In this document: piece after piece, positions 23,046 to 38,746 of the stretch
How positions within the stretch are numbered: position 1 is the stretch's first letter
Layout: each line of letters begins with the position of its first letter
Virus record (IMG/VR): IMGVR_UViG_3300042898_000091
Span: 1-40,520 of that record
Length of the DNA: 40,520 nt
Strand: one strand, 5' to 3'
Source of the DNA: a virus
The notes under the pieces: model-generated
What the model saw: the letters and a program-made list of their open reading frames with translations, nothing else
What the model was told of the DNA's origin: nothing
The model's database searches: none
Made by a program: the position numbers and the translations under genes

Positions 23046-25154
23046 TTATCTCCTGCCGTCGGGTTTAATATCTATACGCGGTGCACCTAACTGCCATGTT
23101 GTTCCAATCTGATCTGAAGCAATCTTAAATATCATCTGCCGCCCACGGGCGCGAGTATAAATAATCCCTGTGTATTCTTCAGTAATGTTGTAAGTCGAAC
23201 CTTTAACCACATTAGCCGCTGCGGGGTTTCCCGTTCCAGACCCAGAGTTTTGCATCGGGTATAGCGTCATAGCAACGGTAGGCGAAGTACCGGTTGAAGT
23301 CGAAACAGAGTTTTCAAACGTCAGGTCAGGCAGTATGCGCCACACGTACCCAAAGTTGTGCCCATCACCAATATCAAACTCTGATGATGAGATGTAAGCC
23401 GCAAGAGCGGTTGAAGTACCAAGGTCATTGGCATCTACTCCGTCTTCATGTTGTACAAGTTCGTGGTTGTACGTTGCCGCAACAGGTAATGACAACAAGC
23501 CTGAGTCTAACCAAGCGGTACGCCCTAAGTTACCGTAGTACCAAACATTTTCCACGTAGTTGTACACTACATAGCGGTCACTAACTAAACTATCGCTAGA
23601 ACAATAGAACCACCAGATTTCGTTAAACCCTTCGTTAGTACCCGCATAAACTTGTTCGTTTTGTAATCGGTTAAAATCACTAAATATATACCGGCGTAAG
23701 TCACAGTTAAGCGTTTGTACCCGACCATCGTATTTGTAAAACTTATCAACGCCCATCCAGTACACCGCACCAGAGGCAATTACCGCTGCATTAGGGCCGA
23801 TAATAGATACGTTGTCCGCTAATAACTGCGCCGTCCAAACAAACGGAGGGCCTACATATTGGAGCGAATACAAAGAGGAATCCGTAAATACTATAATTTC
23901 TTGGCGCGATTGTACGGCGGTAATAATTTCAGAACCGTGAGATAACCTTAAACTACCTGCTTGGTTTGTTATTGCGGGAGACCATACGTAAGGATTCTCT
24001 TGGTCTGACCAACGAATTAACATGGGGTCTAACGTGGTAGAACCATAATCATTCGTACCAAAGACCAGTAAAATCCGCGAAGAATCCGACACAATAATGT
24101 AATTTTGGAATATCGGCGTATCGGCATCCCCTGCGTTAACCAAATTGATACCGCGTTGGGAAATAAATTGCAGTCCTGACTGACCGCCAGACGTTGTAAT
24201 GGGGAGCCCCCCAATAGTTGTGGATAAATTAAATGTACCCCCAGTTGAAGATACTACAAAGTACACCTGCCCAACCACTAGCCCGGTAGGCAACGCACCG
24301 GTAGAAGTAAAAGAAATTGTCGTGCCGTTAGGGAATGAAAACCCAGCAGGTAGCGTAATAAGGCCCGGAGTAGCAATGCTAATCGTAACTTGAATTGGTG
24401 AGTACCCTATGTCCGCACTCCAATAATAGATACCCCCGCCACGAGGACCATAGATTAAATCTTCACCAAAGTTTTGCTGGTTCCATAACTGGAGCGCGGT
24501 AGAAGTGCCTTGACTGTTGCCCCATGTGCCCAACCCCCAACCACCGGCACCCCAGCCAACTAGCGGCACTTGAAACGACGGACCAGTATTTACTTCGTAT
24601 TGCGTAACAACCGTACCGCCACCGGGGGAACCAGCAGCGTCTGTAGCGTTAGCAGTTGCGCTAACTGTAATGGTGTAATTGTCGTTGTTAATAAACGTAA
24701 TCTGAAACGTGCCGGTTAAAACACCTGCCGTAATGTTGCCACCAAGCCCAACGATACCCGCGCCGCTATAAGTAACAAAATCTCCGGTTACGCAACCATG
24801 CGCTACCTCGGACACCGCAATAACGCTTGACCCGTTGGTAGCAGTAAATGGGTTGGTTAATGTAACAGTCTTACGAATTGGAGTAACGTCGTAATAAGCG
24901 TTACCTTTTAGAATATAGAATTTTAAATTAGTACCTACCCCAATTAAGTTTTCCGCAGCTAAAGTAATCCAATTCCATAATGAGCGGCACACGCCCAAGA
25001 ACGTATTCGTAGAAAACGAGGTCCAACCGCCAATCTTCTCAGGGTTGCCTTGACGAAAACGAATCTTATCGCACTCGTACCAGCCGCCCTCAGTGGTGTA
25101 CCGCGTGTTCTCGCGGTTAACACCAGCTTTAAATATTATTTTCTGTAATGGCAT
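23046..25154 (-). CDS. Tail nozzle-type protein (702 aa)
   Basis: The N-terminus has the signature seen in phage nozzle or tail tubular B-like proteins: FKAGVNRENTRYTTEGGWY, then CDKIRFRQGNPEKIGGW. The rest is beta-rich, with repeated strands and WFYCSSDSLVSDRYVVYNY near residue 520. An insertion with Thr/Gly-rich strands spans about 95-190. I recall this family in podoviruses downstream of the adaptor, where it forms the nozzle under the portal and adaptor rings. It has no signal peptide and starts at ATG 25154, three bases after the lysozyme stop on the same strand. Confidence 0.75.
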   Translation of the reverse strand: MPLQKIIFKAGVNRENTRYTTEGGWYECDKIRFRQGNPEKIGGWTSFSTNTFLGVCRSLWNWITLAAENLIGVGTNLKFYILKGNAYYDVTPIRKTVTLTNPFTATNGSSVIAVSEVAHGCVTGDFVTYSGAGIVGLGGNITAGVLTGTFQITFINNDNYTITVSATANATDAAGSPGGGTVVTQYEVNTGPSFQVPLVGWGAGGWGLGTWGNSQGTSTALQLWNQQNFGEDLIYGPRGGGIYYWSADIGYSPIQVTISIATPGLITLPAGFSFPNGTTISFTSTGALPTGLVVGQVYFVVSSTGGTFNLSTTIGGLPITTSGGQSGLQFISQRGINLVNAGDADTPIFQNYIIVSDSSRILLVFGTNDYGSTTLDPMLIRWSDQENPYVWSPAITNQAGSLRLSHGSEIITAVQSRQEIIVFTDSSLYSLQYVGPPFVWTAQLLADNVSIIGPNAAVIASGAVYWMGVDKFYKYDGRVQTLNCDLRRYIFSDFNRLQNEQVYAGTNEGFNEIWWFYCSSDSLVSDRYVVYNYVENVWYYGNLGRTAWLDSGLLSLPVAATYNHELVQHEDGVDANDLGTSTALAAYISSSEFDIGDGHNFGYVWRILPDLTFENSVSTSTGTSPTVAMTLYPMQNSGSGTGNPAAANVVKGSTYNITEEYTGIIYTRARGRQMIFKIASDQIGTTWQLGAPRIDIKPDGRR

Positions 25155-25157
25155 TAT

Positions 25158-25652
25158 TTACCCACTCAGGTACATTGCACGTTCATCTTTACGGCGAGTT
25201 TCCAAACCCTTCTGGACTACGCCGCTTGCCATTCTGTATAGCAGAAAAGCATCACTAGCGCCATCAAAATCGCCACGGTTGTGCTTAGTACGAATCGACG
25301 AACTTTGTAATCGGCCTAGCCCAGCATTGAACGCAAAACTGACGAATGCGTTGTACCTGCCTTGAGTAAGCCCACTAGGGCACAGACGTAGAACACCTCT
25401 CTCGAAACGAGCAAGGTCTGTTTTAAGAATCTCATCCACTTCGGCATTCGTTAGCCCTCTGTCCCACTCTGCTGGACATTTTAATAAGCCCGCAGCTTTA
25501 GCTTCCTTGCGCTGAACAAGCGTCATGTTCAGATGTTCTTTCGGCGCTATCAGATGCCCAACCCCTGTCGTCCACAACAGTACGCTATCTAAGTAAGGCT
25601 TCTTCCTTACCCCTTCGTGGTACTTGAGTTCATGCAGGGCGGTGAAGTTCAT
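25158..25652 (-). CDS. Endolysin, T4-type lysozyme (GH24)
   Basis: A 164-residue muramidase that cuts the glycan of peptidoglycan for lysis. The catalytic triad is visible with the exact T4 lysozyme spacing: E13 in YHEG, D22 in YLDS and T28 in WTTGVGHL. Later blocks fit GH24 phage endolysins (GLTQGRYNAFVSFAFNAG, GLETRRKDERAMYLSG). No signal-arrest-release segment is seen at the N-terminus, so it should need the holin encoded just before it (25649-26134). The two genes overlap by four bases (25649-25652). Confidence 0.93.
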   Translation of the reverse strand: MNFTALHELKYHEGVRKKPYLDSVLLWTTGVGHLIAPKEHLNMTLVQRKEAKAAGLLKCPAEWDRGLTNAEVDEILKTDLARFERGVLRLCPSGLTQGRYNAFVSFAFNAGLGRLQSSSIRTKHNRGDFDGASDAFLLYRMASGVVQKGLETRRKDERAMYLSG

Positions 25653-26134
25653 TTTTTGCTAAAGGCTTGTGTCCCGAACCAAAACGAAATTACAGATGCC
25701 CAAATAATCTGCGTATCGTCATCCCAAACCGCTTCGATCATGACGTTGAACGGTACATTGGTAGTCCACGCATACCAGACGCCAGCAATATCGATAACTA
25801 CAAGTAGAAAGAAAAGGCCGTACGTAATAGTAGGTCGCACCATAGCGCGGAGGTTAATTACCCACTGAGACGCACCCTTGCCGATCTCAATATCATGAGC
25901 ATAGAGGGCTTGTCGCTCAGTTGTCTGCGCTTGAATACTGATCTGCTCGGTGCGAATTTCCTCGATATGCTCTTGGGACTGAAAGCCAGCCTTCTGCATC
26001 TCAAGTTGAGATTGCACCTGTATCTGCGCCAAGGCCAGTTCGTGCTTCTTGTCTTGCTTGTCTTGGAAGAAATCCAGTAGCTTTGGCAAGCCACCAGACA
26101 AAAAGGAAATTAGCGTTGTAAATAGCGTCATCAT
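25649..26134 (-). CDS. Holin, 3-TM gene-transfer-agent type
   Basis: A 161-residue membrane protein. A hydrophobic N-terminal segment (about 2-22) is followed by a long coiled coil (DKKHELALAQIQVQSQLEMQ... to about 85), then two membrane helices (about 100-118, LFFLLVVIDIAGVWYAW, and about 140-155). The end FWFGTQAFSKK matches the C-terminus of the gene-transfer-agent holin-like 3-TM family. It would form holes that release the adjacent lysozyme. It overlaps the lysozyme gene by four bases and the upstream gene by one. Confidence 0.8.
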   Translation of the reverse strand: MMTLFTTLISFLSGGLPKLLDFFQDKQDKKHELALAQIQVQSQLEMQKAGFQSQEHIEEIRTEQISIQAQTTERQALYAHDIEIGKGASQWVINLRAMVRPTITYGLFFLLVVIDIAGVWYAWTTNVPFNVMIEAVWDDDTQIIWASVISFWFGTQAFSKK

Positions 26135-26667
26135 TATTCATCACCCCCATGCTTAAACATCCACCACACTGCATACATAATAAAGCTGCTAATTGACACG
26201 CCAACAACGACCGCTAACCATTCCTGAATGTTCTGAATCCGCTGCTCTTTTTTGCGTTTGATGGCGTACTCACGTTGCCTAATTTCGTAGGCTTCGTCTT
26301 CTAGCGCCTTGCGCCGCGCTTGGATAATAGCGTCCCGCCGTTGGCACATCTCTTCGTACAAACCCGATTCATTGCCAGAGCCGTAGATCAAAGCCTCACG
26401 TAGCTCCACTTCCATCTTGAACATCTGGCGCGATGCAAACATCGCATCAAGCGCCTCGGCAGTAGCGTCCTTCTGTACCGGCTTGCCTAGCTTCTGGTCA
26501 TGTTCCTGCTGTATTACTGCCGCTTGAATCTCACCCTGTGCCGTAAAAAAGGCACTAATATCGTGATAACACTCCTGCACTTCCTTACCAAGCGCAATGG
26601 CTTCCTTCACCCCAGCAACAGCCGCTTTGGCTACTGCAAATGCCGCACCGATTGTGATTGGGTCCAT
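26134..26667 (-). CDS. Coiled-coil protein with C-terminal membrane helix, lysis region (177 aa)
   Basis: The N-terminal 50 residues are alanine-rich and partly hydrophobic (ITIGAAFAVAKAAVAGVKEA). A long charged coiled coil (about 80-145) follows, and one strong transmembrane helix at about 149-172 (WLAVVVGVSISSFIMYAVWWMF) ends in KHGGDE. There is no lipobox or signal peptide. Next to the holin and lysozyme, it could be a spanin-like or holin-modulating protein, but no recognised lysis motif supports that. It overlaps the holin gene by one base. Confidence 0.65.
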   Translation of the reverse strand: MDPITIGAAFAVAKAAVAGVKEAIALGKEVQECYHDISAFFTAQGEIQAAVIQQEHDQKLGKPVQKDATAEALDAMFASRQMFKMEVELREALIYGSGNESGLYEEMCQRRDAIIQARRKALEDEAYEIRQREYAIKRKKEQRIQNIQEWLAVVVGVSISSFIMYAVWWMFKHGGDE

Positions 26668-26673
26668 ACATTG

Positions 26674-27108
26674 TTATTCCTTAGATATTTTCTTAATCTG
26701 TGTAGCTATTTCATCTGCGTGGTGGCTAGGAAAGCAGGAATCAAATTTACCAGTAATCCGCACATCGTAATGCTTTGGCGGGACAAATAGCTTGTTCGTA
26801 TCCTCAAACCTACCCTCTTTAATCCGGTCTACCCAGATCGTAAAGTCAGCACCAAAGGCAGTCCTTGTCTCCGGCGTAGGGCATACAAAGTCCGCAAGAA
26901 CTACCGACCCCCACCGACTTGCTATGTCGCACAGTACACCCATGCGCCTAGCCTGTTCAATCCTATCCTCAATACTAAAACCCAAATCCTTGTTGATCTC
27001 TTTACGAACCTTGTCAGCATTAAAGTGAACGCATTGTAGTTCCCGCGCAAGAGCCTCTGCCAACGTAGTTTTGCCCGATCCCGGCAAGCCACAGATTAAA
27101 ACCTTCAT
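26674..27108 (-). CDS. cysC-like: Adenylylsulfate (APS) kinase-like P-loop kinase
   Basis: A 144-residue P-loop kinase that aligns along its length with APS kinases (CysC): GLPGSGKTTLAEALA for the P-loop at residues 7-15, FNADKVRKEINKDLGFSIED for the DGDNVR-x-x-LGFS block, RIEQARRMG for the RxENIRR block, VLADFVCPT in place of AFISP, and EGRFEDTNKLFVPPKHYD in place of the C-terminal lid. The serine that is phosphorylated in bacterial enzymes is cysteine here (FVCP), and the protein is shorter than E. coli CysC at both ends. It would convert APS and ATP to PAPS. It overlaps the sulfotransferase gene by four bases. A different small-molecule or nucleotide kinase is possible. Confidence 0.75.
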   Translation of the reverse strand: MKVLICGLPGSGKTTLAEALARELQCVHFNADKVRKEINKDLGFSIEDRIEQARRMGVLCDIASRWGSVVLADFVCPTPETRTAFGADFTIWVDRIKEGRFEDTNKLFVPPKHYDVRITGKFDSCFPSHHADEIATQIKKISKE

Positions 27109-27920
27109 TGCTTAAACTTAATCGTCATCAACTTTGTAGGTTCGCTCTTTCTCCAGAACTCTTTACCGGCATACTTGTCCCAGACTGACTTAGGTAGGAT
27201 TGACGGTCTTTGCTGCCAAGTAACTTCCTTCCTGACCGTATGCAAACTCTTCATGTTCAAGGCTTTGTCATACACCTCGTTCTCATACTCTACATTCATA
27301 AAGTTATGGTCAAAGTACGGCTTACCCATGAACTCATAAATCTCGCGCATTACGCTTTCAGGTTTCTTGCACAGCGACTCATATTCTACTAACAAAATCA
27401 TGTCAGGATTTAACAACAGCCCCTCTTCCAAGAAGTAGTAAGGCTTAACGACCTGACCCTCTTTCTTCACATCCATCATCGCATCACAGCGTGTCGTAAC
27501 CGTCTGGCTTGCCTCGTCATCAGTCAGCGTCGCGTTCCACAACGTATTCTTTGCAGATATGCGCTCAAAGCTGTCTAGTATCCAAGGTATGTCTCGCACG
27601 CAGCAGATAATCTTCGTCTCTGGGTACAGCGCCTTAATCAACGAGGTCTTAGCTGTCCAGCCCCTGCTTGTGTCAAATACCGTGTTTGGCTCTACTGCAT
27701 CGTAGTAAGCGTTAAACATTGACCGCAGAATACTTTTGCGCCTGTCTTCACCAATCAGGTGGTTACTCTCGCTACCCGTAATGACGTTAATTGCAGAAGT
27801 AACTAATCCCTGCACAGGGGAGGAAATGTCTGCGTAAAAGTCAGGGTTCTGCTTGAGAATAGCCGACAGAAGGGTAGAACCCGACCTCGGTAGCCCAGAA
27901 ATAAAGTAGAACTCTTTCAC
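27105..27920 (-). CDS. Sulfotransferase (PAPS-dependent)
   Basis: A 271-residue cytoplasmic-type sulfotransferase. The 5'-phosphosulfate loop is at residues 8-17 (SGLPRSGSTL), and the 3'-phosphate site is R109 with S117 in CVRDIPWILDSFERI. Later blocks are LLVEYESLCKKPESVMREIYEF and a C-terminal LHTVRKEV. It would transfer sulfate from PAPS to a hydroxyl or amino group of an unknown acceptor; sugar, lipid or tyrosine acceptors cannot be told apart. The start is GTG at 27920, overlapping the preceding stop. The gene after it encodes an APS kinase-like protein, which would make its donor. Confidence 0.85.
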   Translation of the reverse strand: MKEFYFISGLPRSGSTLLSAILKQNPDFYADISSPVQGLVTSAINVITGSESNHLIGEDRRKSILRSMFNAYYDAVEPNTVFDTSRGWTAKTSLIKALYPETKIICCVRDIPWILDSFERISAKNTLWNATLTDDEASQTVTTRCDAMMDVKKEGQVVKPYYFLEEGLLLNPDMILLVEYESLCKKPESVMREIYEFMGKPYFDHNFMNVEYENEVYDKALNMKSLHTVRKEVTWQQRPSILPKSVWDKYAGKEFWRKSEPTKLMTIKFKQ

Positions 27921-28345
27921 GCTTGTGGAACCCAGCTAAGTGTTGCCTCATCCCACTGGTAACGCACATTGCCACCGTTCATAATCGCGTCAACAGGACG
28001 GGCTACAGGGGCGCTCCAAGTCATCGTGTCTAAGTATCCTATCCATGACGGGAAAGGCTTAGTGGCCTCATGCTCTACAACCCTGCGCTCGTTCCATACG
28101 GCCTCTGTTAGGACTTCCAACACACCGGCAATAGTCGTGTCAGCGTCGTCATCACAGGTGCCGTAATATTTAGGCGCACGTAGGTATGTACCGTCAGAGG
28201 TTAGTTCTACAGGCCATGTTGATTGGTCCTGCCATGCATAAACCCAGCCCTTCACATTAGGCATAGATGGCCCTGTACGCTGCGGCTCTACCGTGCAAGG
28301 TATCTTGGTAACAGCATCTACTTCGGTTACGCAAATATGTTTCAT
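27917..28345 (-). CDS. Conserved phage tail-region protein (142 aa)
   Basis: A beta-rich protein of a type common near phage fibre genes, with repeated Trp-centred strands (GWVYAWQDQSTWPVEL, PFPSWIGYLDTMTWSAP, YQWDEATLSWVPQA). The end resembles carbohydrate-binding or fibre-tip protein strands, but no known family is certain. It starts at 28345 after the Lcl-type fibre gene and overlaps the sulfotransferase start by four bases, so it may be tail-located or linked to the sulfation pair. Confidence 0.65.
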   Translation of the reverse strand: MKHICVTEVDAVTKIPCTVEPQRTGPSMPNVKGWVYAWQDQSTWPVELTSDGTYLRAPKYYGTCDDDADTTIAGVLEVLTEAVWNERRVVEHEATKPFPSWIGYLDTMTWSAPVARPVDAIMNGGNVRYQWDEATLSWVPQA

Positions 28346-28354
28346 ATTGTTTCC

Positions 28355-29263
28355 TTACACTGCAACACGGCGGATAGCGCGAACACGGTAGGTATAGGTC
28401 TTAGTGAGGCCGTTCTGATTGCCGGTACCTAGGAACTGCGCCCATCCGGCCCTATAAGAAAACTCAGTACTAGACCAATAATATTGCCCTGTAAAGGCTT
28501 GAGCGCCACCATCTTGAAAATCCGCCGCAGATGTTTGTGGTGGTGTTCCAGCCGTGTAAGTAGTGGGTCTTGCAGGGACTGCATTTGCATTTATGCCAAA
28601 TATTGTATTGTTACTTGCTGTCGTGGGTTTTAAGTTGTAATAACACACCTCCAACTCATTTCTTGCTGGCATATACCAATCTGTAAATCCACCAATAGTA
28701 CGTCCTTCACAAAACTGTGCCGCTGGATGGCTTGCGTTGTTCATTACAGCACTATTAGATGGGCCATCAATAACTGATGTTGTTCCAGCAGTTGTAGTTA
28801 GAGTAGTTTTCCACTCCACGCTTGTAGTTTGAGCAGAAGCTAGTGGGCCAACTACAAGGTTGTAGTCAGCAATACTGTTTCCAGCAGTTGAAATTTGACC
28901 CGCAAAAAACCCACCACCAAAGGATTGACCAATAACTGGAAGCGTAGTGATTGAATTACTTGCTGCACTAGCTGCACTTGTACCAATTGCATTGGTTGCA
29001 GTAACAGTAAATGTATAAGATGTATTACCAGTTAATCCGCTTACGGTAATTGTTCCTGACCCTGCTTGACTCAATGTGCCTGTAATTCCACTTGGGCTTG
29101 ATGTTGCTGTGTATGAAGTAATAACAGAACCACCGTTACTTGCTGGCGCTGTGTAAACAACTGTAGCCGTTGTTGCACCTGTAGCTGTAGCAGTGCCAAT
29201 AGTAGGCGCTCCGGGAACAGTAGCAAAGCTACCCCCCACCACATTAAGCATAATCCCGCTCAT
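28355..29263 (-). CDS. Fibre protein: fibronectin III plus Lcl/DUF1566 lectin-like domain
   Basis: The first 15 residues resemble a small N-terminal attachment piece. A fibronectin type III domain covers about 17-110 (VPGAPTIGTATATG, then SGLTGNTSYTFTVTATNAIG). A DUF1566/Lcl-type domain covers about 130-302: GGFTDWYMPARNELEVCYYN, YYWSSTEFSYRAGWA and the final TYTYRVRAIRRV. That fold is lectin-like and sits at receptor-binding tips in several phages, so this is the best candidate for host recognition in the window. It overlaps the preceding gene by four bases. Confidence 0.8.
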   Translation of the reverse strand: MSGIMLNVVGGSFATVPGAPTIGTATATGATTATVVYTAPASNGGSVITSYTATSSPSGITGTLSQAGSGTITVSGLTGNTSYTFTVTATNAIGTSAASAASNSITTLPVIGQSFGGGFFAGQISTAGNSIADYNLVVGPLASAQTTSVEWKTTLTTTAGTTSVIDGPSNSAVMNNASHPAAQFCEGRTIGGFTDWYMPARNELEVCYYNLKPTTASNNTIFGINANAVPARPTTYTAGTPPQTSAADFQDGGAQAFTGQYYWSSTEFSYRAGWAQFLGTGNQNGLTKTYTYRVRAIRRVAV

Positions 29264-29778
29264 GCTAAATTACCCGTGACCACGGCGACTGTGGCAGTGA
29301 TAAACAGAATAGTAGCTACACCCCGTGTAGTTACACTAAAAGAGGAAATATCAGCATCTGTGCCGCCCTTGTAAACCGTTGTTACAGCAGAACAAGTGCA
29401 AGAAATAGAGCCTGATGTATTGTTAAAGATGCTGATTGCATCGCCTGTTGTAAACACAGAAGCAGGTACAACAATTGTGCCGGAAGTACCAAGCTCAACA
29501 AACTTGCCTACATCGCCAGCAACAAGGGTGTAGCTTGATGTCTTAATGCCTGATAGTGGAATGTTGCGATAACCAACCGCATTAGTACCGTCTGCTGTGC
29601 AAGTAGTAAGGTTTCCTGAAGTCGGCGTACCTAATACCGGCGTGACTAATGTCGGCACCCCGGCGGAACTTATCGTAATACCTGTGTTACCCGCACCTTG
29701 CAGCGCCAAAGAACCAGACGCATCGCCTGTAATAATCGCCCCGCCTGTTGAAGTATCCGCATTAATCGTTGTGGTCAT
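29260..29778 (-). CDS. Fibre/virion protein (172 aa)
   Basis: A small-residue-rich, beta-prone fibre protein: an N-terminal INADTSTGGAIITGDASGSL and GTPTSGNLTTC, then a more compact C-terminal domain (SGIKTSSYTLVAGDVGKFVEL, then RGVATILFITATVAVVTGNLA). I recall similar proteins in phage fibre clusters, with a shaft-like repeat region and a small beta domain. The stop overlaps the next gene by four bases. It is coupled to the small EN-G-x-V protein at 29782-30024 and may be a partner of the fibre cassette. Confidence 0.65.
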   Translation of the reverse strand: MTTTINADTSTGGAIITGDASGSLALQGAGNTGITISSAGVPTLVTPVLGTPTSGNLTTCTADGTNAVGYRNIPLSGIKTSSYTLVAGDVGKFVELGTSGTIVVPASVFTTGDAISIFNNTSGSISCTCSAVTTVYKGGTDADISSFSVTTRGVATILFITATVAVVTGNLA

Positions 29779-29781
29779 GTC

Positions 29782-30024
29782 TTACTCCAGTGCTTGTATT
29801 TGTGCAGACAACGCAGCTAGTTGCGCCATCAGTTGTTCTTTGGTTGGGGCGGGTACTGCTATTGCTGCGGGTACGGGACGATTGTCAATAAACTGACCGT
29901 TAACGTAGTCCCAATCAATGCCGCCGCTTGTTAGCTCAACCCAGCCTTGAGTAGTTGCGTAGTCTGCCTCGGCAACTACCGTATTGATTACTTTACCGTT
30001 TTCGATAATTGCGTAATTTGGCAT
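29782..30024 (-). CDS. Small fibre-accessory protein (80 aa), copy 2
   Basis: It begins MPNYAIIENGKVINTVVAE, continues with a Trp-containing beta stretch (GGIDWDYVNGQFIDNRPVP), and ends with a short coiled coil (APTKEQLMAQLAALSAQIQALE). It is clearly homologous to the 84-residue protein at 30775-31029. Small proteins of this shape next to glycine-rich fibres are likely fibre-tip subunits or assembly chaperones. It follows a glycine-rich fibre gene by nine bases. Confidence 0.75.
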   Translation of the reverse strand: MPNYAIIENGKVINTVVAEADYATTQGWVELTSGGIDWDYVNGQFIDNRPVPAAIAVPAPTKEQLMAQLAALSAQIQALE

Positions 30025-30033
30025 AGTTGTTCC

Positions 30034-30771
30034 TTAGTATTCAAAAATAACAACACCTGCCGCGCCAGCACCACCGGCATAAGTGCCTGTACCACCAGCA
30101 CCACCTGTTCCCACAGTGACAGTTAAAGTATTTCCCGGCGTAAGTCCGGTAAAGTATTTAATTGACGCGCCACCACCACTGCCACCAACACCTGTCGTGC
30201 CACCAGCAACAGAGCCACCGCCGCCGCCACCATAAAGATTTCCATTATTACCTGGATCACCAGCCTGACTATATTTTCCGCTTCCGCCAAATATTGATCC
30301 TCCACCAACGCCGCCTTTATTAGTTGCATTGAATTGCCCAGAACTTCCTGTGATGTTTAGCTGACCGCCGCTACCTACACCTCCATCAGTTGGTTGTGAT
30401 CCAGAACTTGCTGTTCCCCCTCCACCTGTAGCAGATATGGTTGTTATCGTTTGAGTCCCTGAAGCAACACTACTTGTACCCCCTGTAGCCCCGTCAGTTG
30501 ACCCGTTAGCATTGCCGCCACCGCCACCACCACCAACAACAGTAATTTTAAGTGTGGTAATACCGGCGGGAATAGTGAATGTACCTGACGAAGTTGAAAC
30601 AGACATTGTGGTGAAGCCACCGCCCGGAGTAACCCATGTGGGCGCAGATGCACCATTACTTTGCAGAACCTGACCGCTAGTCCCCGCAGCAGTAAACGCA
30701 AGCTCAGTCCCATCTCCGTAGCCTACGCCGCCTAGTGTGGGGGTGTTGTTTCCGTCAATTATGATTGCCAT
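30034..30771 (-). CDS. Glycine-rich tail fibre (245 aa)
   Basis: The first 55 residues are a small conserved attachment/collar region (NTPTLGGVGYGDGTELAF, GQVLQSNGASAPTWV). About 75-235 are glycine-rich with GGGGG runs, ending in GGAGAAGVVIFEY, the beta end of the phage glycine-rich domain family. The lattice of polyglycine helices in such fibres binds host surface receptors in known phages. It is followed by its own 80-residue accessory gene, so the pair is a unit, and it is the shorter of two such fibres. Confidence 0.8.
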   Translation of the reverse strand: MAIIIDGNNTPTLGGVGYGDGTELAFTAAGTSGQVLQSNGASAPTWVTPGGGFTTMSVSTSSGTFTIPAGITTLKITVVGGGGGGGNANGSTDGATGGTSSVASGTQTITTISATGGGGTASSGSQPTDGGVGSGGQLNITGSSGQFNATNKGGVGGGSIFGGSGKYSQAGDPGNNGNLYGGGGGGSVAGGTTGVGGSGGGASIKYFTGLTPGNTLTVTVGTGGAGGTGTYAGGAGAAGVVIFEY

Positions 30772-30774
30772 CGT

Positions 30775-31029
30775 TTACTCCAGTGCTTGGATTTTAGCCG
30801 TCAGAGCCTGTAGCTCTGCAAGCAGTTGTTCTTTGGAAGGCGCAGTAATTACTGGCGCTATAACTGGATCAGGCTCAGTAAAGTTTGTGCCGTCGTATTT
30901 CCAGCTAATGCCTACAGCCTTATTGTTGATATAAGTAGGGAACTCAACAAGCCCATGCTCCGCAGCAAAAGCCGCATCAGCAACCACTGTGTTGGTAATT
31001 ACACCGTTTTCTATTTTTGCGTAGCCCAT
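30775..31029 (-). CDS. Small fibre-accessory protein (84 aa), copy 1
   Basis: It begins MGYAKIENGVITNTVVAD, has a beta middle (VGISWKYDGTNFTEPDPV) and ends in a coiled coil (APSKEQLLAELQALTAKIQALE). It is homologous to the protein at 29782-30024 over the whole length. It lies nine bases after the 364-residue glycine-rich fibre, so fibre and accessory gene appear to have been duplicated together. Confidence 0.75.
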   Translation of the reverse strand: MGYAKIENGVITNTVVADAAFAAEHGLVEFPTYINNKAVGISWKYDGTNFTEPDPVIAPVITAPSKEQLLAELQALTAKIQALE

Positions 31030-31038
31030 ATTATCCCC

Positions 31039-32133
31039 TTACCAGCTATAAATTCGTGCATATCCTATACCGCCAGCACCACCCGCACCTGAATTGACGC
31101 CATTTATTGCGCCACTACCTCCACCCCCACCTCCGCCACCAGCACCACCAGCACCGCCTGTACCGCCAATTAGTGATACATCAGCACTACCGCCACCGCC
31201 GCCAGAACCAGAACCTCTACTTGCAGATTGCGTTCCGGCTGTTCCGGGTCTACCTGCTGCCCCGCCACCACCAATAACATAACTATTAATAGCCCCGCCA
31301 CTAGAACCTGCTACCGCTGTATTTGAACTTTGAATGCCGCCGCCGCCGCCCCCTCCTGCGCCCCCAAAAATTGAAGACCCCGCATTTGCTGGCAGGAAAA
31401 AATAACCATAAGCACCACTACCACCACCCCATTCAGCATTACCAGATGTTGATGCGCCTCCGCCACCGCCACCACCAGTATTATTGGTTTGACCAGCACC
31501 TACTCCACCAAAATAGGTATCAGATGGGAAACCGCCAGCATTTGTACTGGCACCCCCAGTGGCTCCCGCGCCACCACTACCGCCACCGCCACCGCCGGGG
31601 ATGGCGCTTCCAGAGGATGCCCCACCAGTACCGCCACCGCCACCGTAACTTGTTAAATATGCGCCAAAAGTTGTACTACCACCAACCGTTCCAACACTAC
31701 CATCTGTATCATTTGCCGTTATTGCTGCGCCGCCAGTGCCACCAGCACCCAAAGTTACCGTTACAGTAGATGTAAGATCACTGGCTTTAAACATATATTT
31801 AACATGAGAGCCACCACCACCGCCACCGCCACCGCTGCGATTACTACTTGTTGCGCCCCTTCTGCCTGATGCGCCACCACCGCCAGCGGCCCATAACTCC
31901 ACCATTACAAAAGTACATCCAGAAGGTTTAGTGTATGTGCCAGATGATGTGAATTCTTGTAGGTTTGCCCCGGGCACACCAGTCACAGTACCCGTAAACG
32001 TGACACTTTGATCTGCACCAATCGTCATCGCCGTAGTAGCACTAGCGCCCGTCTTAAATACCAACGCACCCGTAGTATCGCCAGTGCTAACTAGCGCGGT
32101 TCCTGTTGCTGTACCTGCTGAAATTGAACTCAT
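31039..32133 (-). CDS. Glycine-rich tail fibre (364 aa)
   Basis: An N-terminal attachment-like region (about 1-75, ending GANLQEFTSSGTYTKPSGC) leads into about 280 residues dominated by glycine runs with Ala, Ser and Asn, ending in GGIGYARIYSW, the terminal strand of the glycine-rich fibre family. The polyglycine region would form a helical sandwich carrying the host-binding face. This is the longer of the two glycine-rich fibres and is followed by its own accessory gene. The opposite strand holds long open frames that are composition artefacts. Confidence 0.8.
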   Translation of the reverse strand: MSSISAGTATGTALVSTGDTTGALVFKTGASATTAMTIGADQSVTFTGTVTGVPGANLQEFTSSGTYTKPSGCTFVMVELWAAGGGGASGRRGATSSNRSGGGGGGGGSHVKYMFKASDLTSTVTVTLGAGGTGGAAITANDTDGSVGTVGGSTTFGAYLTSYGGGGGTGGASSGSAIPGGGGGGSGGAGATGGASTNAGGFPSDTYFGGVGAGQTNNTGGGGGGGASTSGNAEWGGGSGAYGYFFLPANAGSSIFGGAGGGGGGGIQSSNTAVAGSSGGAINSYVIGGGGAAGRPGTAGTQSASRGSGSGGGGGSADVSLIGGTGGAGGAGGGGGGGGSGAINGVNSGAGGAGGIGYARIYSW

Positions 32134-32144
32134 CTCTTATCCTC

Positions 32145-33005
32145 TTATAAAACAACCCAGCGTTGGCCGGAAGAAACAGTAACAGCGTAACCGCTTGAAA
32201 TAGTCATTGGACCAACACTCATGCCATTTGTACCAGAAGCAATTGTATAACTAGCCGATATTACATCCTCATTAATAAGGATGCCACCCCCTGCACCTGA
32301 ACTACCGCCGGTAGCGGCGATGGTCTGGTTAGGCCATGTTCCAGTTATAGTGACATTTGAACCCGCTACTAGTGCTGGAGTAGCAGTAGCAGTACCCCCA
32401 TTTGCTATGGGAAGAAACCCCGTTACATTCGTAGCTAAATTTACAAAAGTTGTAGATGTTGTACCAGTACCACCATTGGCAATGGGGAGCGTCCCTGTTA
32501 CATTAGTCGTTAAGTTAGTAAACGTAGTGGACGTAGTACCAGTACCACCATTGGCAATGGGAAGCGTCCCTGTTACGTCAGAAGAATTAAGGTTGATCGG
32601 ACCGCCCGTAATTTTGACAAAATCAGAGCCATTCCAAGCAATCAACGCCTTATAACCCGAAGTAATAGTAATACCGACCGTAGGGCCAGCGCCACGAACT
32701 ACAATGGTGCCAGTACCGGCATTAATAACGATATACGCTTTACTCTGCGCTGGAGCCGTAATGTTTCGAGTGGTAGCGCCGTTACTGGCAGTCCACAAAA
32801 TTACTGCGTTACGTGCTTGATTGTCTGCACCATTTGTTGTCGTTAACGTGACATCTGCGTTTGCTGAAAGTGTGACCGTACCTGCTACAGCATCATCAAG
32901 CAAGTCAGTAATTGCGGTATTAACCGTTGTACCCCACGTACCGGACAAATCGCCGGTTGTTGGCAGTGCTAGGCCAAGTAGGGGAGTAAAATTTGTAACT
33001 GCCAT
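32145..33005 (-). CDS. Tail fibre protein with three 25-aa repeats (286 aa)
   Basis: The start MAVTNFTPLLGLALPTTGDL with GTWGTTVNTAITDLLD is the typical beginning of phage tail fibre or collar proteins. Three tandem units of 25 residues with TGTLPIANGGTGTT follow at about residues 145-218, matching the fibre repeat module that forms beta-rich trimers. The C-terminus (NGMSVGPMTISSG, then SGQRWVVL) is shared with the 154-residue protein encoded next. It is the first of three fibre-like genes after the tandem-repeat protein. Confidence 0.8.
   Translation of the reverse strand: MAVTNFTPLLGLALPTTGDLSGTWGTTVNTAITDLLDDAVAGTVTLSANADVTLTTTNGADNQARNAVILWTASNGATTRNITAPAQSKAYIVINAGTGTIVVRGAGPTVGITITSGYKALIAWNGSDFVKITGGPINLNSSDVTGTLPIANGGTGTTSTTFTNLTTNVTGTLPIANGGTGTTSTTFVNLATNVTGFLPIANGGTATATPALVAGSNVTITGTWPNQTIAATGGSSGAGGGILINEDVISASYTIASGTNGMSVGPMTISSGYAVTVSSGQRWVVL
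32352..32573. repeat. Tandem 75-bp repeats in fibre gene
   Basis: Three adjacent 75-base units (32499-32573, 32424-32498, about 32352-32423) encode the TGxLPIANGG repeat. The first two are very similar at DNA level, including CCATTGGCAATGGG; the third has diverged. Confidence 0.8.
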
Positions 33006-33014
33006 GTTATTTCC

Positions 33015-33479
33015 TTAGAGAACAACCCAGCGTTGACCACTACCAACCGTAAACGATGAGCCGGAACTTATAGTTACTGGGCCTACCGACATACCGCTTT
33101 TACCCGTTGTCATAGTATATGCGCCTGTTAACGTCGTGTAGTTTTCTACTACTACACCATCTCCATTAGCAAACGCTGCTAATTCTGCGGGATAAGCTAC
33201 AAATACATCTTTAGTACCCGCCGTAAAATCAACCAAACTCCCGCTGTTACTAGAAGATAATACGGTCGTGCGAGATAGGACGGTACCAGAAGAAGTATAT
33301 GTACCGACCCCAACTTCCCACTCAGTGCCTGTTTGCGCAACAATAGTGTAGTACGTACTGTTGCTATTTCCAATAGCAGCAAAAGATTGAAACCCTGTAG
33401 CCGCCCCGGCAAGCGTGACCGTACCCGTACCTGTTGTGGTGGTAGTTTCTTTAACCCGGTCTTTTACGACGAATGCCAT
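33015..33479 (-). CDS. Virion/fibre-associated protein (154 aa)
   Basis: A beta-rich protein beginning AFVVKDRVKETTTTTGTGTV, with blocks YTIVAQTGTEWEVGVGTYTS, LSRTTVLSSSNSGSLVDFTAG and DVFVAYPAEL that I recall from phage fibre and structural clusters. The C-terminal tail GMSVGPVTISSGSSFTVGSG ends in QRWVVL, the same ending as the fibre at 32145-33005, so the shared tail may be an assembly or trimerisation element. No enzyme motif is seen. It precedes the fibre gene by nine bases. Confidence 0.7.
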   Translation of the reverse strand: MAFVVKDRVKETTTTTGTGTVTLAGAATGFQSFAAIGNSNSTYYTIVAQTGTEWEVGVGTYTSSGTVLSRTTVLSSSNSGSLVDFTAGTKDVFVAYPAELAAFANGDGVVVENYTTLTGAYTMTTGKSGMSVGPVTISSGSSFTVGSGQRWVVL

Positions 33480-33488
33480 ATTATGTCC

Positions 33489-34286
33489 TTACACCGTCAT
33501 TTCAACATTTTGCCAATTAGGAGTTTCGCTGTCATCTATAAGCGACCAATAGAATGTATTTACTGTTCCGACTTGACCTCTAGCTTGTACGCCTGTTATG
33601 GCTACCGTACGGCTAACCCCCACTGATCCTACAGCACCTGTAGCTTGTACACCGTTTTCAGTTGGGTTGTTAGTTTCCGTAACATTACCTACTGCACCCG
33701 CAGCCTCAACTCCAGTTAAAGCAATAGTCTGGCTAAGTCCTACTATACCCACAGAACCAGTAGCGCCTACACCGCTAAGAGTCGCCCCATAAGTAATTAC
33801 CGCAGTAAGAGTACCTACATCACCAGAGCCTTGCGCCCCATTTAGCCCAATAGCCTGTTCACTTATTACCGTACCTACATTACCAGTAGCTACAACTCCA
33901 GTTTCTGTTGGAGAATTTGTCTCTGTTACTGTACCAACTTCGCCGTTGGCTTCAACACCTGCCAGCGTTAATGCGCGTTCCCCAACTATAACTGTGCCTA
34001 CCGCGCCTGTTGCTTCAACACCAGACAACGCCGCAAAATAGTTTTGCGAATCTACTACCGTGCCAACTGCGCCAGATGCTTCAACACCTGTCAGTACTAA
34101 TGACCGTTCCCCAATTGCAACCGTACCAACCGCACCCGCTGCTTCAACCCCTGTTAGCGCAACAGAACTAACCTCCGCAACTGTGCCTACCGCGCCAGAT
34201 GCCTGAACGCCGGTAAGAGCAACGACTACCGTCTGCCCCGCAAGTGAGGCAAACGGCGCTTCAGCAAAAGCGGCTATTCCGAACAT
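33489..34286 (-). CDS. Tandem-repeat virion protein with GVxAxGxVGxV units (265 aa)
   Basis: After a 15-residue start (MFGIAAFAEAPFASL) the protein consists of about 11 tandem imperfect units of 18-24 residues, each ending in LTGVEAAGAVGTV-like sequence (variants GVQASGAVGTV, GVVATGNVGTV, GVEANGEVGTV). A short C-terminal domain follows (FYWSLIDDSETPNWQNVEMTV). The repeat is likely a beta-rich stalk. Relatives with variable repeat number occur in marine and freshwater phage structural clusters, as I recall. A similar repeat is in the 146-residue protein at 22602-23042. Confidence 0.75.
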   Translation of the reverse strand: MFGIAAFAEAPFASLAGQTVVVALTGVQASGAVGTVAEVSSVALTGVEAAGAVGTVAIGERSLVLTGVEASGAVGTVVDSQNYFAALSGVEATGAVGTVIVGERALTLAGVEANGEVGTVTETNSPTETGVVATGNVGTVISEQAIGLNGAQGSGDVGTLTAVITYGATLSGVGATGSVGIVGLSQTIALTGVEAAGAVGNVTETNNPTENGVQATGAVGSVGVSRTVAITGVQARGQVGTVNTFYWSLIDDSETPNWQNVEMTV

Positions 34287-34293
34287 GGCTACC

Positions 34294-34313
34294 CTAGCGA
34301 GTTACCCCGCTAG
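34294..34313 (-). promoter_or_regulatory. Small hairpin in a 32-base gap
   Basis: CTAGCG (34294-34299) and CGCTAG (34308-34313) form a perfect six-pair stem in the largest gap of the late operon, between the 169- and 265-residue genes. No T run follows on the transcribed strand, so it is more likely an RNA-stability or processing element than a terminator. Confidence 0.35.
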
Positions 34314-34318
34314 TCCTA

Positions 34319-34828
34319 TTAGGTTGTAGCCAGACGGATGAGCGCAGTTGTTGTAGCGTTAGCTGGCATCGTCAACGTAAACGTACCCGCAGTAATAGTC
34401 TGCGAACCGAACGTATGGATACTCACAGCAGGGTATGCGCCGCCAGTACCTTGCGTAAAGTTATAGACCATCACAGCATCAAACGCAGTAGCCAAAGTTA
34501 CTGTTGTGTACGTAATGCTTGCCGAGGGAGTCCAGAAAGCCACGCCCGCAGTCACAGAGCTATTTGTTGCTGTTGGCGGAGTTGCGTTAGTAATAGCCAC
34601 ACCACCTGCGGTATAGCCTGTACCAGACACTTCGCCCGCCATGGTAGTTGCGCCCACCGTGCCAGTGTAATCAGAAGAAGAGGCATTAAACGTACCGCTT
34701 GCTAATAGTAGTGCGCCGTAATAAACATCTGCGGCAGTAGAACCGCGAACTACGCCTACGCCAAAATTGTGCGTACCCGTCATGAGCTTACCCATGAACG
34801 AAGTTGACATTGCTTGTGTATTTGCCAT
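34319..34828 (-). CDS. Virion structural protein (169 aa)
   Basis: A beta-rich protein beginning ANTQAMSTSFMGKLMTGTHN, then the block GEVSGTGYTAGGVAITNATP, and ending ITAGTFTLTMPANATTTALI. The middle and end share layout and motif (GEVxGxGYTAGG) with the 137-residue protein at 35023-35436, so both likely belong to one structural family with a tail- or head-linked role. Nothing suggests an enzyme. It follows the small 62-residue gene by nine bases. Confidence 0.7.
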   Translation of the reverse strand: MANTQAMSTSFMGKLMTGTHNFGVGVVRGSTAADVYYGALLLASGTFNASSSDYTGTVGATTMAGEVSGTGYTAGGVAITNATPPTATNSSVTAGVAFWTPSASITYTTVTLATAFDAVMVYNFTQGTGGAYPAVSIHTFGSQTITAGTFTLTMPANATTTALIRLATT

Positions 34829-34837
34829 GATATTTCC

Positions 34838-35026
34838 TTATGCGAAAGAGGCTGCTTCAGCGGCAAACGTCACCGCTTTTTTTAATTGAACATGGGCAGA
34901 ACGATGTACCAGTTCGCCATCTAACCAATACTCTACCCACGTAGTGTATTCATTATCGTTATCGACATTACCCTCGCGCTTCTCCAGCAAGGATTCGTCC
35001 ATTTCACCTTTAGTCGTCGTAATCAA
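34838..35026 (-). CDS. Small conserved phage protein (62 aa)
   Basis: An acidic protein with MDESLLEKREGNVDNDNEYT at its start and WVEYWLDGELVHRSAHVQLKK in the middle, ending in an alanine-rich EAASFA. I recall this combination in small late phage proteins of unknown role. It sits between two related structural genes and overlaps the upstream one by four bases (35023-35026). Confidence 0.65.
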   Translation of the reverse strand: MITTTKGEMDESLLEKREGNVDNDNEYTTWVEYWLDGELVHRSAHVQLKKAVTFAAEAASFA

Positions 35027-35436
35027 TTTGAACTCCTGATAATGGCAGATGTGGCTGTGTTGGTAGGTGGCGTAACTATAAAATCAGCAGATGTTTTGTC
35101 AGACCCAAAATCTAGTACCGCAATCGACTTATTGCCTTTTGACGCATTGTAAATTAACGCACCCCGCGCCGTAACAGAAGCATTGAAATCAACGGCATTG
35201 AAGCTAACATACGCAGTATACCCAGATGAGTTAATTGTTACACCAGTTAACAAGACCCCACCGGCAGTATAGCCCCCACCAGTAACCTCACCACTTGTTG
35301 TGTAAATCAAAGTATCTTGGTTAAGATCTGCGGTTGCAACATACAGCGCCATATAAAGATTGTCAGTAAGAAGGTTATGCGTTGCTTCGTACAGTTGCTT
35401 CTTAAAGCTAGTAGTTTGAGTTTGATTAATTGCCAT
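35023..35436 (-). CDS. Virion structural protein (137 aa), related to the 169-aa protein
   Basis: It begins AINQTQTTSFKKQLYEATHN with LYMALYVATADLNQDTLIYT, followed by SGEVTGGGYTAGGVLLTG and FNAVDFNASV, and ends DFIVTPPTNTATSAIIRSSN. The pattern is shared with 34319-34828 and is common in phage structural clusters. It has no signal peptide or catalytic motif. It follows the SU10-like adaptor gene by one base, so a role in the head-tail connector or tail is plausible. Confidence 0.7.
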   Translation of the reverse strand: MAINQTQTTSFKKQLYEATHNLLTDNLYMALYVATADLNQDTLIYTTSGEVTGGGYTAGGVLLTGVTINSSGYTAYVSFNAVDFNASVTARGALIYNASKGNKSIAVLDFGSDKTSADFIVTPPTNTATSAIIRSSN

Positions 35437-35437
35437 A

Positions 35438-36145
35438 TCAAGTCACCGCCTGTCTGTACTGACCTGAACGATAAGCGTCTTGACGCTCCATACCATCCCC
35501 CAGACGTTTAGCCAGTGCCAAAGCCTCTTTGTACTTACCGTCATACAACGCAAGTAAGTCAGTCTCGCCCTTCATGAACGTATAGGCTTCAACCAACGAT
35601 CCGTATAACAGTACAGAATCAAAGTTGTCACCCAACCATGACGTGTTAGCAGTTGTGATTGACTCAGGGTAGTAATAGAAATGTAGCTCTGCTGTGTATG
35701 CGCTATTTGGCGTTGGGCCAAGAATAAACGTCAACTCATTAGTAATCGCATTCCCCACAATAGCTGGACCAAATAACGCATAGTACGCAGGTAACCCTGT
35801 ATCAGCGGGAGTAGGGTAAGACTCACGGATAAAGTTAACGTCCTTGTTCAACAAGAAAGTGTATGTTTCCGTAGCCAATCCGTAATTCTCAATAATTGCC
35901 AGCGAGTACACAGCCAGAAAATCATCAGGCGCTTTTAGATACTTATTACCCGACTGTAAATTACCCGTCATGTTCTTACGAATGGACGGAAACTGAACCG
36001 AGTTGTAAATGCGTTGCTCCGCCTGCTGAATAAACCGATTGATTTGTTCAGTAGTTGTTTCGGTACCGCCGCCAGCCAGCGCTATATCCGGGAACTCGTT
36101 CTCGGTGTATGACTGAATTGACGCAACAAGTTCAGTGTAATTCAT
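35438..36145 (-). CDS. Head-tail adaptor protein, SU10-like
   Basis: A 235-residue protein that matches the phage SU10-type adaptor: NYTELVASIQSYTENEFPDI, then EQINRFIQQAEQRIYNSVQFPS, then LKAPDDFLAVYSLAIIENYG, and a C-terminal helical bundle with LYGSLVEAYTFMKGETDL. In such phages a ring of this protein sits under the portal and links head and tail. It lies within the small-gene head-tail cluster. An alternative would be a nearby connector protein of the same fold. It starts at ATG 36145, three bases after the previous stop on this strand. Confidence 0.85.
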   Translation of the reverse strand: MNYTELVASIQSYTENEFPDIALAGGGTETTTEQINRFIQQAEQRIYNSVQFPSIRKNMTGNLQSGNKYLKAPDDFLAVYSLAIIENYGLATETYTFLLNKDVNFIRESYPTPADTGLPAYYALFGPAIVGNAITNELTFILGPTPNSAYTAELHFYYYPESITTANTSWLGDNFDSVLLYGSLVEAYTFMKGETDLLALYDGKYKEALALAKRLGDGMERQDAYRSGQYRQAVT

Positions 36146-36147
36146 GG

Positions 36148-36417
36148 TTATGCCATTGGTCCACGAGCAATCGTGCCTTTAGTAGCACAGCCATTACCAC
36201 GGGTTTTGATGCCAGTTGTCTTGACATCATCACGCCCCGGATCGCCCGCGCTTACACGCTGAACACTTGCACGAGGACCAAGCTGACGCGCATTTAACAT
36301 GTTTGGGTCAGTAGGTTTCTTCATCTTCATAGGACCTCCGGTCATTGAATGGGGCTTAGCATACACAGCGGCTTGGCCTACTTCTTTGCCTTTGAGCTTT
36401 TGTGAAAATTTAGCCAT
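36148..36417 (-). CDS. Small basic phage protein (89 aa)
   Basis: It begins AKFSQKLKGKEVGQAAVYAK, with a Met/Gly/Pro-rich middle, and ends KTRGNGCATKGTIARGPMA. The ending (GxGCATKGTxARG) is a recurrent tail of small phage late proteins. The frame continues to an earlier ATG at 36465, but ATG 36417 is preferred because AAAGGTGG lies just before it and the earlier start would overlap the previous gene by 47 bases. Its function is unknown. Confidence 0.7.
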   Translation of the reverse strand: MAKFSQKLKGKEVGQAAVYAKPHSMTGGPMKMKKPTDPNMLNARQLGPRASVQRVSAGDPGRDDVKTTGIKTRGNGCATKGTIARGPMA

Positions 36418-36418
36418 A

Positions 36419-36622
36419 TTAGCCACCTTTTTTGTACGTAAAGGAAGACTTCTTCTGGTTAGCAACTTTAGCTAGACCACGACCTAGCTGTTTCATTTGA
36501 AGATTAGTCTTGCCACCTTTAGCCATCTTAGTCATAGGTTGACCGGGATGCAGCTTCTTCTCGTGCTTATGCACGGCACCGGCCATCATCTTCTTGTCTT
36601 GTTTCAAATCTGCTTTGTCCAT
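36419..36622 (-). CDS. Small very basic phage protein (67 aa)
   Basis: Begins MDKADLKQDKKMMAGAVHKH and has lysines throughout, with a M33-A-K-G-G37 motif and a YKKGG ending. I recall the MDKADLKQDKKM start from many phage late operons. It is likely a nucleic-acid- or capsid-binding peptide, but this is not shown. It lies one base from the previous gene. Confidence 0.7.
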   Translation of the reverse strand: MDKADLKQDKKMMAGAVHKHEKKLHPGQPMTKMAKGGKTNLQMKQLGRGLAKVANQKKSSFTYKKGG

Positions 36623-36633
36623 TTTAAGCTCCT

Positions 36634-37041
36634 CTAGGATACCGTTACTGTACCAACACTTGTTGTTGCTACTAAATAATTTGGCGTTAGGGCGGCGTCA
36701 AAACTACTTGCTCCACCAACGGGTGCCCAACCCCACTGAAATATCCGACTACCACCACTAGGATCACCAAAATCAGTATTCGTTGTAAGCTGCAAACCCG
36801 TGTAGCCCGCTTGCCGGTAGCTATTATCCCGTCTTGGCTCACGTACTGCTTGTGGATCATCTACCGGATACATACCTAACTGCAACTGCGGCTGGTCTGG
36901 TTCCCAGCAGGTTGAGCATACAAGAATACTAACCTGCTTAGTCTTAATCGTCAGCTTCTTTAGTTGTTTCAACTTATAGCGAAACCCACACCGATCACAC
37001 TCAGCGATTGCATTCTTGCCTGACGAGAACCTATTACCCAT
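36634..37041 (-). CDS. Zinc-ribbon phage structural-module protein (135 aa)
   Basis: C15-x2-C18 in ECDRCGFRYKLKQLKKL and C42-x2-C45 in VCSTCWEPDQ form a four-cysteine zinc ribbon. The next block LQLGMYPVDDPQAVREPRRD is recurrent in phage late clusters, and the last 40 residues are an unstructured Gly/Thr-rich beta tail. It follows the 247-residue adaptor candidate by two bases. A structural role around the head-tail junction is suggested by the position. Confidence 0.75.
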   Translation of the reverse strand: MGNRFSSGKNAIAECDRCGFRYKLKQLKKLTIKTKQVSILVCSTCWEPDQPQLQLGMYPVDDPQAVREPRRDNSYRQAGYTGLQLTTNTDFGDPSGGSRIFQWGWAPVGGASSFDAALTPNYLVATTSVGTVTVS

Positions 37042-37043
37042 GA

Positions 37044-37787: not shown

Positions 37788-38020
37788 TATCTAAACCCTG
37801 CTGTTTTCTTTGCTATGCCCTTGGGCTGCTTAACAAACTGCTTTCCTGCTGCTTTCCCTGCCCGCTTTGCCTTCGTTGTGGCGGCATACTCTGACGGGGT
37901 GAGTGACTTGATAGCCGCTTCTGGCAGGTATCGTTCGCCTGTCTTTGACGACGGCTTACCGCTCTTTGTCCGCCATTTTTGATCGCCCCATGACTTCAGG
38001 CTTTGCTGTGGCGCTTTCAA
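37787..38020 (-). CDS. Small basic phage protein (77 aa)
   Basis: It begins MKAPQQSLKSWGDQKWRTKS, has the block TGERYLPEAAIKSLTPSEYA and a lysine-rich end (GIAKKTAGFR). I recall this small protein from many phage late operons, without a function. It overlaps the previous gene by four bases. Confidence 0.75.
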   Translation of the reverse strand: MKAPQQSLKSWGDQKWRTKSGKPSSKTGERYLPEAAIKSLTPSEYAATTKAKRAGKAAGKQFVKQPKGIAKKTAGFR

Positions 38021-38401: not shown

Positions 38402-38402
38402 C

Positions 38403-38744: not shown

Positions 38745-38746
38745 AA

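Follow-up and report, generated by a model that had tools for sequence, protein, structure and literature searches.

The window analysed here is the whole of a virus record of 40,520 bases. As shown by its ORF list, the minus strand of the window carries, at positions 29782-32133, two tandem cassettes, each consisting of a glycine-rich fibre gene and a small accessory gene, with fibre 1 and accessory 1 followed by fibre 2 and accessory 2. The place, order and sizes of the four ORFs (364, 84, 245 and 80 aa) are those given in an earlier sequence-only reading of this DNA. The features of the region are as follows (L007, L012 and L013 are relatives of the window).

31039..32133, minus strand: slot-1 fibre gene, 364 aa; codons 1-24 encode a constant N-terminus, followed by the exchanged tip (predicted to be TNF-like and glycine-rich), which ends GYARIYSW
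30841..32061, minus strand: slot-1 exchange unit, which covers the tip of the fibre and the head of its accessory and is replaced by other sequence in L007, L012 and L013 (borders placed in 12-nt bins)
30775..31029, minus strand: accessory 1, 84 aa; head (approximately residues 1-55) and C-terminal coil; proposed miniature fibre chaperone
30778..30840, minus strand: coil 1, class E9/T14/K16; constant sequence that flanks the slot-1 exchange unit on its 3′ side
30034..30771, minus strand: slot-2 fibre gene, 245 aa; N-terminus MAIIIDGNNTPT; tip ends AGVVIFEY
29782..30024, minus strand: accessory 2, 80 aa; head and C-terminal coil
29785..29847, minus strand: coil 2, class Q9/S14/Q16
29260..29778, minus strand: slot-3 gene, 172 aa; N-terminus TTTINADTSTGG; match to phrog_27346 (E 4.8e-4)

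Each accessory gene is located directly downstream of its fibre gene, with a gap of 9 nt in both cassettes, and the 3′ ends of the two accessory genes form a 69-nt direct repeat (D7) with 74% identity. The slot-3 gene starts 3 nt past accessory 2 and has no coil accessory behind it in the window. Contig IMGVR_UViG_3300044638_000177 (L003), 100% identical to the window over 10,029 nt, was counted as the same virus and not as an independent relative.

Upstream of the cassettes, two further minus-strand ORFs (32145-33005 and 33015-33479) have a common C-terminus, SVGPxTISSG...SGQRWVVL (repeat D8). In L005 the N-terminus of the first of these, MAVTNFxPLLG, carries a glycine-rich tip instead. These ORFs may represent further slots without chaperones. 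Behind the slot-3 gene, a 302-aa ORF (28355-29263, minus strand) contains an fn3 domain (E 3.7e-8) and an Lcl_C domain (E 4.4e-9).

Alignment of the two accessory proteins revealed identity at 40 of 83 positions (48%; E 7e-22), which confirmed the homology that had been claimed for them. The start, a Trp residue and the C-terminal helix are common to both, and the Trp is invariant across an alignment of 53 accessories that includes both window proteins. The fibres, with a glycine content of 34% (fibre 1) and 31% (fibre 2), were found by BLASTP to have only a 19-residue piece in common (best E 0.022). Fibre 1 scored 40.9 bits against Pfam Gly_rich_2 (PF21722), above the cut-off of 24.3 bits; fibre 2 scored 13.8 bits, below it, and matched phrog_863, annotated as tail (E 3.5e-10). 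Both cassettes are probably of the host-recognition type, with fibres that grip the host. Since the tips differ in sequence type, it is plausible that the two fibres would serve two types of receptor.

The predicted structure of fibre 1 (mean pLDDT 75.9) matches solved structures over residues 55-364 and contains the TNF-like plus glycine-rich fold of the kind found in Pam3 gp24 and Bxb1 gp33. The closest solved relative of its tip is gp33 of mycobacteriophage Bxb1, from the tail wing brush (PDB 9D93; chain 9d93_Qa, Z 24.6 over 213 residues), a protein which, unlike fibre 1, belongs to another phage and, judged by the name of the PDB entry alone, to another position in the tail. Chain 7ypx_A followed (Z 16.2 over 187 residues), and then the glycine-rich domains of ALK/LTK, with Z 8.6 and less. 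A phmmer comparison of fibre 1 with Bxb1 gp33 gave E 6.3e-6.

The model of accessory 1, built with the 53 aligned accessories as input, has a mean pLDDT of 93.2. It comprises a head built from two strands, one short helix and additional pieces of strand, followed by a linker and a helix (residues 66-83) in which L, L, L, I and L recur at heptad spacing. With E values up to 10 allowed, a Foldseek search of the PDB with this model returned two chains, led by 7ypx_a (E 0.12, probability 0.97). In a VIA comparison with four chains aligned, the head matched 7ypx_a with Z 5.7, rmsd 2.0 and 32% identity over 50 residues, a match that is weak taken alone, as a VIA Z below 8 may reflect only a common arrangement. 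The lengths of the 7YPX chains (250 and 162) fit gp24 and gp25, to which they presumably correspond (the assignment of chains to proteins is our own). According to the available text of PMC9608196, 7YPX is the complex of the Pam3 fibre gp24 with its chaperone gp25. A PDB sequence search with accessory 1 gave no match at E up to 10, nor did a PDB profile search with the accessory 1 profile at E up to 1.

Neither window accessory reaches a Pfam or NCBIfam cut-off. Membership in Phage_tail_APC (PF16778) was considered and rejected, since this family had no match in the window accessories; it is also absent from the families listed for the 53 accessories. A tblastn search of phage records with accessory 1 (E up to 0.01) detected only Synechococcus phage S-CBS4 (two records of one phage; 45.6% identity over 55 residues), in which the related head lies in gp049 (L253, 3986-4426), annotated as a tail fiber protein; three further weak matches appeared at E up to 10. 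Accessories without the coil were also compared. Among nine selected ones, the heads of six (L005, L132, L164, L174, L284 and L286) align with that of a coil accessory at a score of at least 100, and those of L267, L278 and L279 do not reach this score. In L286 such a head (score 136) is joined to a Phage_tail_APC domain at residues 62-119 (E 5.9e-24); PF16778 is above the cut-off in the L286 and L278 accessories, below it in L005, and without a match in L132 and L164.

These results suggest that the accessories are probably miniature fibre chaperones, in which a head serves the fibre tip and a coiled coil of about 20 residues forms the C-terminus. The main argument is that the models of two different window proteins match the two partners of one complex, 7YPX; in addition, such heads are also found joined to other tails at the C-terminus, including Phage_tail_APC in L286. 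Alternatively, the accessories could be lasting parts of the virion, such as tip adhesins or removable caps, and not chaperones that leave. A role of this sort would likewise couple head to tip, and the available text of PMC10579305 records both that caps have been proposed for the chaperones of Alteromonas phages A5 and V22 and that the Tfa of Mu stays on its fibre. However, mass spectrometry of Pam3 virions did not detect gp25, the only match with a solved structure (PMC9608196, available text), and in some relatives the heads are replaced by accessories with a Phage_tail_APC tail. A lasting part is thus a minority possibility, though one to be taken seriously.

The distribution of such cassettes was examined by searches of IMG/VR with accessory 1 (19 loci), accessory 2 (25 loci) and two coil DNA patterns (108 and 112 stretches). 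The accessory and coil-pattern searches, with the genome_contigs match and duplicates included, gave 252 ORFs with the coil, which is located no more than 2 residues from the C-terminus in 244 of them. One ORF, with the coil 39 residues from its end, was dropped. The distinct cassettes number 155, of which 147 have an upstream ORF; redundancy was removed only where the last 60 residues were exactly identical, and near-duplicates remain. The search pattern fixed or limited coil positions 2-6 and 8-10, and a regular expression did so for other positions, so that conservation there is partly built in; the comparison of coils at the DNA level and the Mantel results given below do not depend on this conservation. 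A coil-independent search of IMG/VR with a slot-2 fibre pattern retrieved 76 stretches, in which a coil accessory lies behind 28 of 56 complete slot-2-type fibres; behind the others there is a gene with a different tail, an incomplete gene or none at all.

Co-variation of the parts was assessed by partial Mantel analysis of similarity matrices for the 103 of 155 cassettes with a usable upstream fibre and downstream gene (299 permutations). Since the cassettes are related, the permutation p values are too small, and with this reservation the fibre tip co-varied with the accessory head (r 0.555, p 0.003) and the coil with the N-terminus of the next gene (0.155, p 0.003), while values for the head and coil of one gene (0.026, p 0.18, not significant) and for tip and coil (-0.037, p 0.90) were close to zero. 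The Mantel value for the fibre N-terminus and the N-terminus of the next gene was 0.325, and an earlier run on 62 cassettes gave an unchanged picture. Similar tips occurred in 228 of 431 pairs with similar heads, compared to 35 of 3421 with dissimilar heads. When only pairs with unlike fibre N-termini were counted, the corresponding figures were 168/344 and 30/2968. Among 141 cassettes, with head classes set by our own regular expressions, fibres with at least 20% glycine accompany 43 of 47 YAxIENG heads and none of 34 H-type heads. The head thus co-varies with the tip of the neighbouring fibre gene, independently of the coil in its own gene.

The borders of the exchange unit were mapped by comparison of the window with three relatives. 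Over the first 72 nt of the slot-1 fibre gene, the window is identical at 63 (L012), 68 (L007) and 69 (L013) positions, and over the next 12 nt at only 3-4. At the other end, the last 60 nt of the accessory 1 gene are identical at 54 (L012), 60 (L007) and 60 (L013) positions; in the 12-nt bins that precede them, identity falls to 7/12 and then to 2-5/12. The replaced stretch thus extends from behind fibre codon 24 to within about 12 nt of the coil. Indeed, the blastn alignment of the window with L012 (95.8% identity) stops at 32069 and resumes at 30836, coil 1 beginning at 30840. L004 has the slot-1 unit and coil in common with the window and differs in the next gene, which indicates that a border can also fall behind the coil.

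Movement between slots was revealed by relative L007, which is colinear with the window and 95.9% identical to it over 2697 nt upstream of the cassettes (window 32461-35157). The slot-1 unit of the window (30767-31968) matches slot 2 of L007 (82.2% over 1216 nt), and the fibre 1 protein is 80% identical to the slot-2 fibre of that phage. Close relatives of the window carry other tips and heads in slot 1. Taken together, the replaced units in relatives and the presence of the window slot-1 unit in slot 2 of L007 demonstrate that tip-plus-head units are exchanged between phages and between slots. The cassettes are therefore not fixed and always co-inherited, and exchange by recombination, raised in the sequence-only reading as possible switching, is supported by these relatives.

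The same comparison bears on the origin of the two cassettes, which had been described as a duplicated host-recognition unit. The description holds in so far as both cassettes are of the host-recognition type and have homologous accessories; a local duplication is not upheld. Ordinary tandem duplication of a single cassette, in the absence of exchange among phages, would account for the 48% identity of the accessories and for the same gene order in both cassettes. However, the fibres do not align beyond the 19-residue piece, fibre 1 has its close relative in slot 2 of L007, and the slot-1 content varies among relatives with sharp borders, which makes this origin highly improbable; a recent tandem duplication was rejected because of the first two of these observations. 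A programmed switch (inversion or a diversity-generating element) alternating tips within one phage would fit the two slots and the strong diversity of tips, and is given equally little credence. Only two pairs of inverted repeats of at least 18 nt were detected in 27900-33500 (19 and 26 nt, 81-84% identity), neither of which frames the cassettes as a switch would, and no recombinase, invertase or reverse transcriptase was found among the window proteins scanned (part of the ORFs). Programmed inversion was set aside as very unlikely, as no inverted repeats of at least 18 nt, at the search settings used, frame the cassettes.

The coil was then compared at the DNA level. Accessories with unrelated heads often have identical coil DNA. 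Altogether, 375 pairs of cassettes have an identical coil peptide, and in 245 of these the heads are unrelated; the mean codon identity of these 245 coils is 0.73, compared to 0.39 expected from head codon use, and reaches at least 0.90 in 52. Such identity under unrelated heads is as expected if crossovers fall in or beside the coil. The same figures could mean that the coil is kept for its DNA, as a recombination joint or other nucleotide signal, with the peptide incidental. This is improbable, since the codon identity is explained by common descent through crossover, the open frame and heptad pattern are kept, and the coil ends almost all of the ORFs that contain it (244/252, as given above). 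Moreover, other peptide tails occupy the same place in relatives, and the two coils of L242 show 0 amino-acid differences and 10/20 synonymous ones.

The coils fall largely into two types, 149 of the 155 having either E9 and K16 or Q9 and Q16. In 19 of 25 adjacent pairs, one coil is E9/T14/K16 and the other Q9/S14/Q16, in either order (9.7 expected on re-pairing), and in L171, with three tandem coil cassettes, the classes alternate. The exceptions are L015, L035, L073, L092, L132 and L242. Adjacent coils (25 pairs) differ at 5.2 of 20 amino acids, compared to 4.45 for all pairs (p 0.012 on re-pairing), and show no clear excess difference at the nucleotide level (p 0.17); since a slot retains its coil class throughout a lineage, the pairs cannot count as independent, few independent lineages are represented, and these p values overstate the case. 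That neighbouring coils are usually of different class is suggestive only. An amino-acid difference without a clear nucleotide difference points to selection acting on the protein and not to avoidance of repeated DNA. The coil might then act as an address tag, keeping side-by-side chaperones from one message from mixing, so that a unit dropped into a slot would receive the tag of that slot. This proposal is tentative and rather doubtful. There is no obvious charge clash between the two classes, the L242 coil peptides are identical, the neighbouring coils of L035 differ at three positions within one class, and the lineages are few. In addition, the effect shrank with more data, the first figure, from 18 pairs, having been 5.6 (p 2e-4).

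The interpretation favoured here, and considered likely, is that each cassette encodes a tail-fibre protein, probably trimeric, and its own intermolecular chaperone, and that tip and head are exchanged as one unit while the fibre N-terminus and the coil stay with the slot. The chaperone head would bind the TNF-like/glycine-rich tip of the fibre during folding, and the short C-terminal coiled coil would gather the chaperone subunits, a function served in Pam3 gp25 by a larger helical domain. The tip would have to fit the head, and the two would for this reason be inherited and exchanged together across the gene junction; if they form one functional pair, selection most likely keeps the recombinants that move both. 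The fibre N-terminus, the putative position of attachment, and the coil would serve as homologous flanks where crossovers fall, since both are common to many cassettes and homologous recombination can end there. The outcome would be a row of slots refilled from a shared pool of tip-plus-head units.

In kind, such a system is ordinary, being built of a fibre with a chaperone and of mosaic tips. For T-even gp37/gp38, variable fibre C-termini or adhesins are exchanged by recombination near conserved sequence. The same has been described for marine metaviromic islands, for which the available text of PMC3909814 contains no coil-tailed chaperone cassettes. Like the window, Pam3 (PDB 7YPX; PMC9608196, available text) has a fibre with a TNF-like, glycine-rich tip and, behind it, a chaperone of two parts, a variable head and a conserved helical tail. 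However, Pam3 has one fibre and the window tandem slots, and the helical domain of gp25 (about 99 residues, four helices) contrasts with the single helix of about 18 residues in the window accessory; exchange borders, mapped here for the window, are not described in that text. Tfa and other tail assembly chaperones (TfaMu; PF16778) are likewise encoded by a small gene behind the fibre gene, and relatives of the window carry the same type of head on a PF16778 tail, in place of which the window accessories have the coil. In the modules of Alteromonas phages A5, V22 and P24, a fibre and its cognate chaperone are also exchanged together between phages, but there the whole module is common to distant phages, whereas in the window it is the tip and head across the gene junction, with several slots per phage (PMC10579305, available text).

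Three features are unusual, namely a chaperone tail of reduced size, slots arranged in tandem and a unit of exchange that runs across gene borders; no description of coil-tailed chaperones in tandem slots was found in the titles and abstracts returned by searches of open-access papers. The natural exchange unit in these phages is not the gene, but the fibre tip together with the head of the putative chaperone, cut from two adjacent genes between two constant pieces. Such a unit would explain how a tip can change without loss of its folding helper. The pairing gives a rule by which the chaperone needed by a given tip may be predicted from sequence alone, and it allows a test of whether a phage with more than one type of fibre has to keep its chaperones separate.

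The remainder of the window encodes, on the plus strand, DNA polymerase, helicase and primase-like genes and, on the minus strand, virion proteins, an ejection-protein match and an endolysin. A 702-aa virion protein is less than 40% identical to the best-listed phage proteins, its nearest annotated relatives, indicating that the phage is far from the isolates in that collection; a nucleotide search of phage records with window 25000-40520 gave no match. The host was not found, the sole genome_contigs match being a contig of 12 kb from an Actinomycetota MAG. Immediately downstream of the fibre region (26674-27920, minus strand), an adenylylsulfate-kinase-like gene (PF01583, E 2.9e-16) adjoins a sulfotransferase gene (PF13469, E 1e-19), possibly a phage-borne pair for making and using PAPS. 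A 2020-aa ORF on the minus strand (10211-16273) contains an LPD38 domain (PF18857, E 3.7e-13) near its C-terminus.
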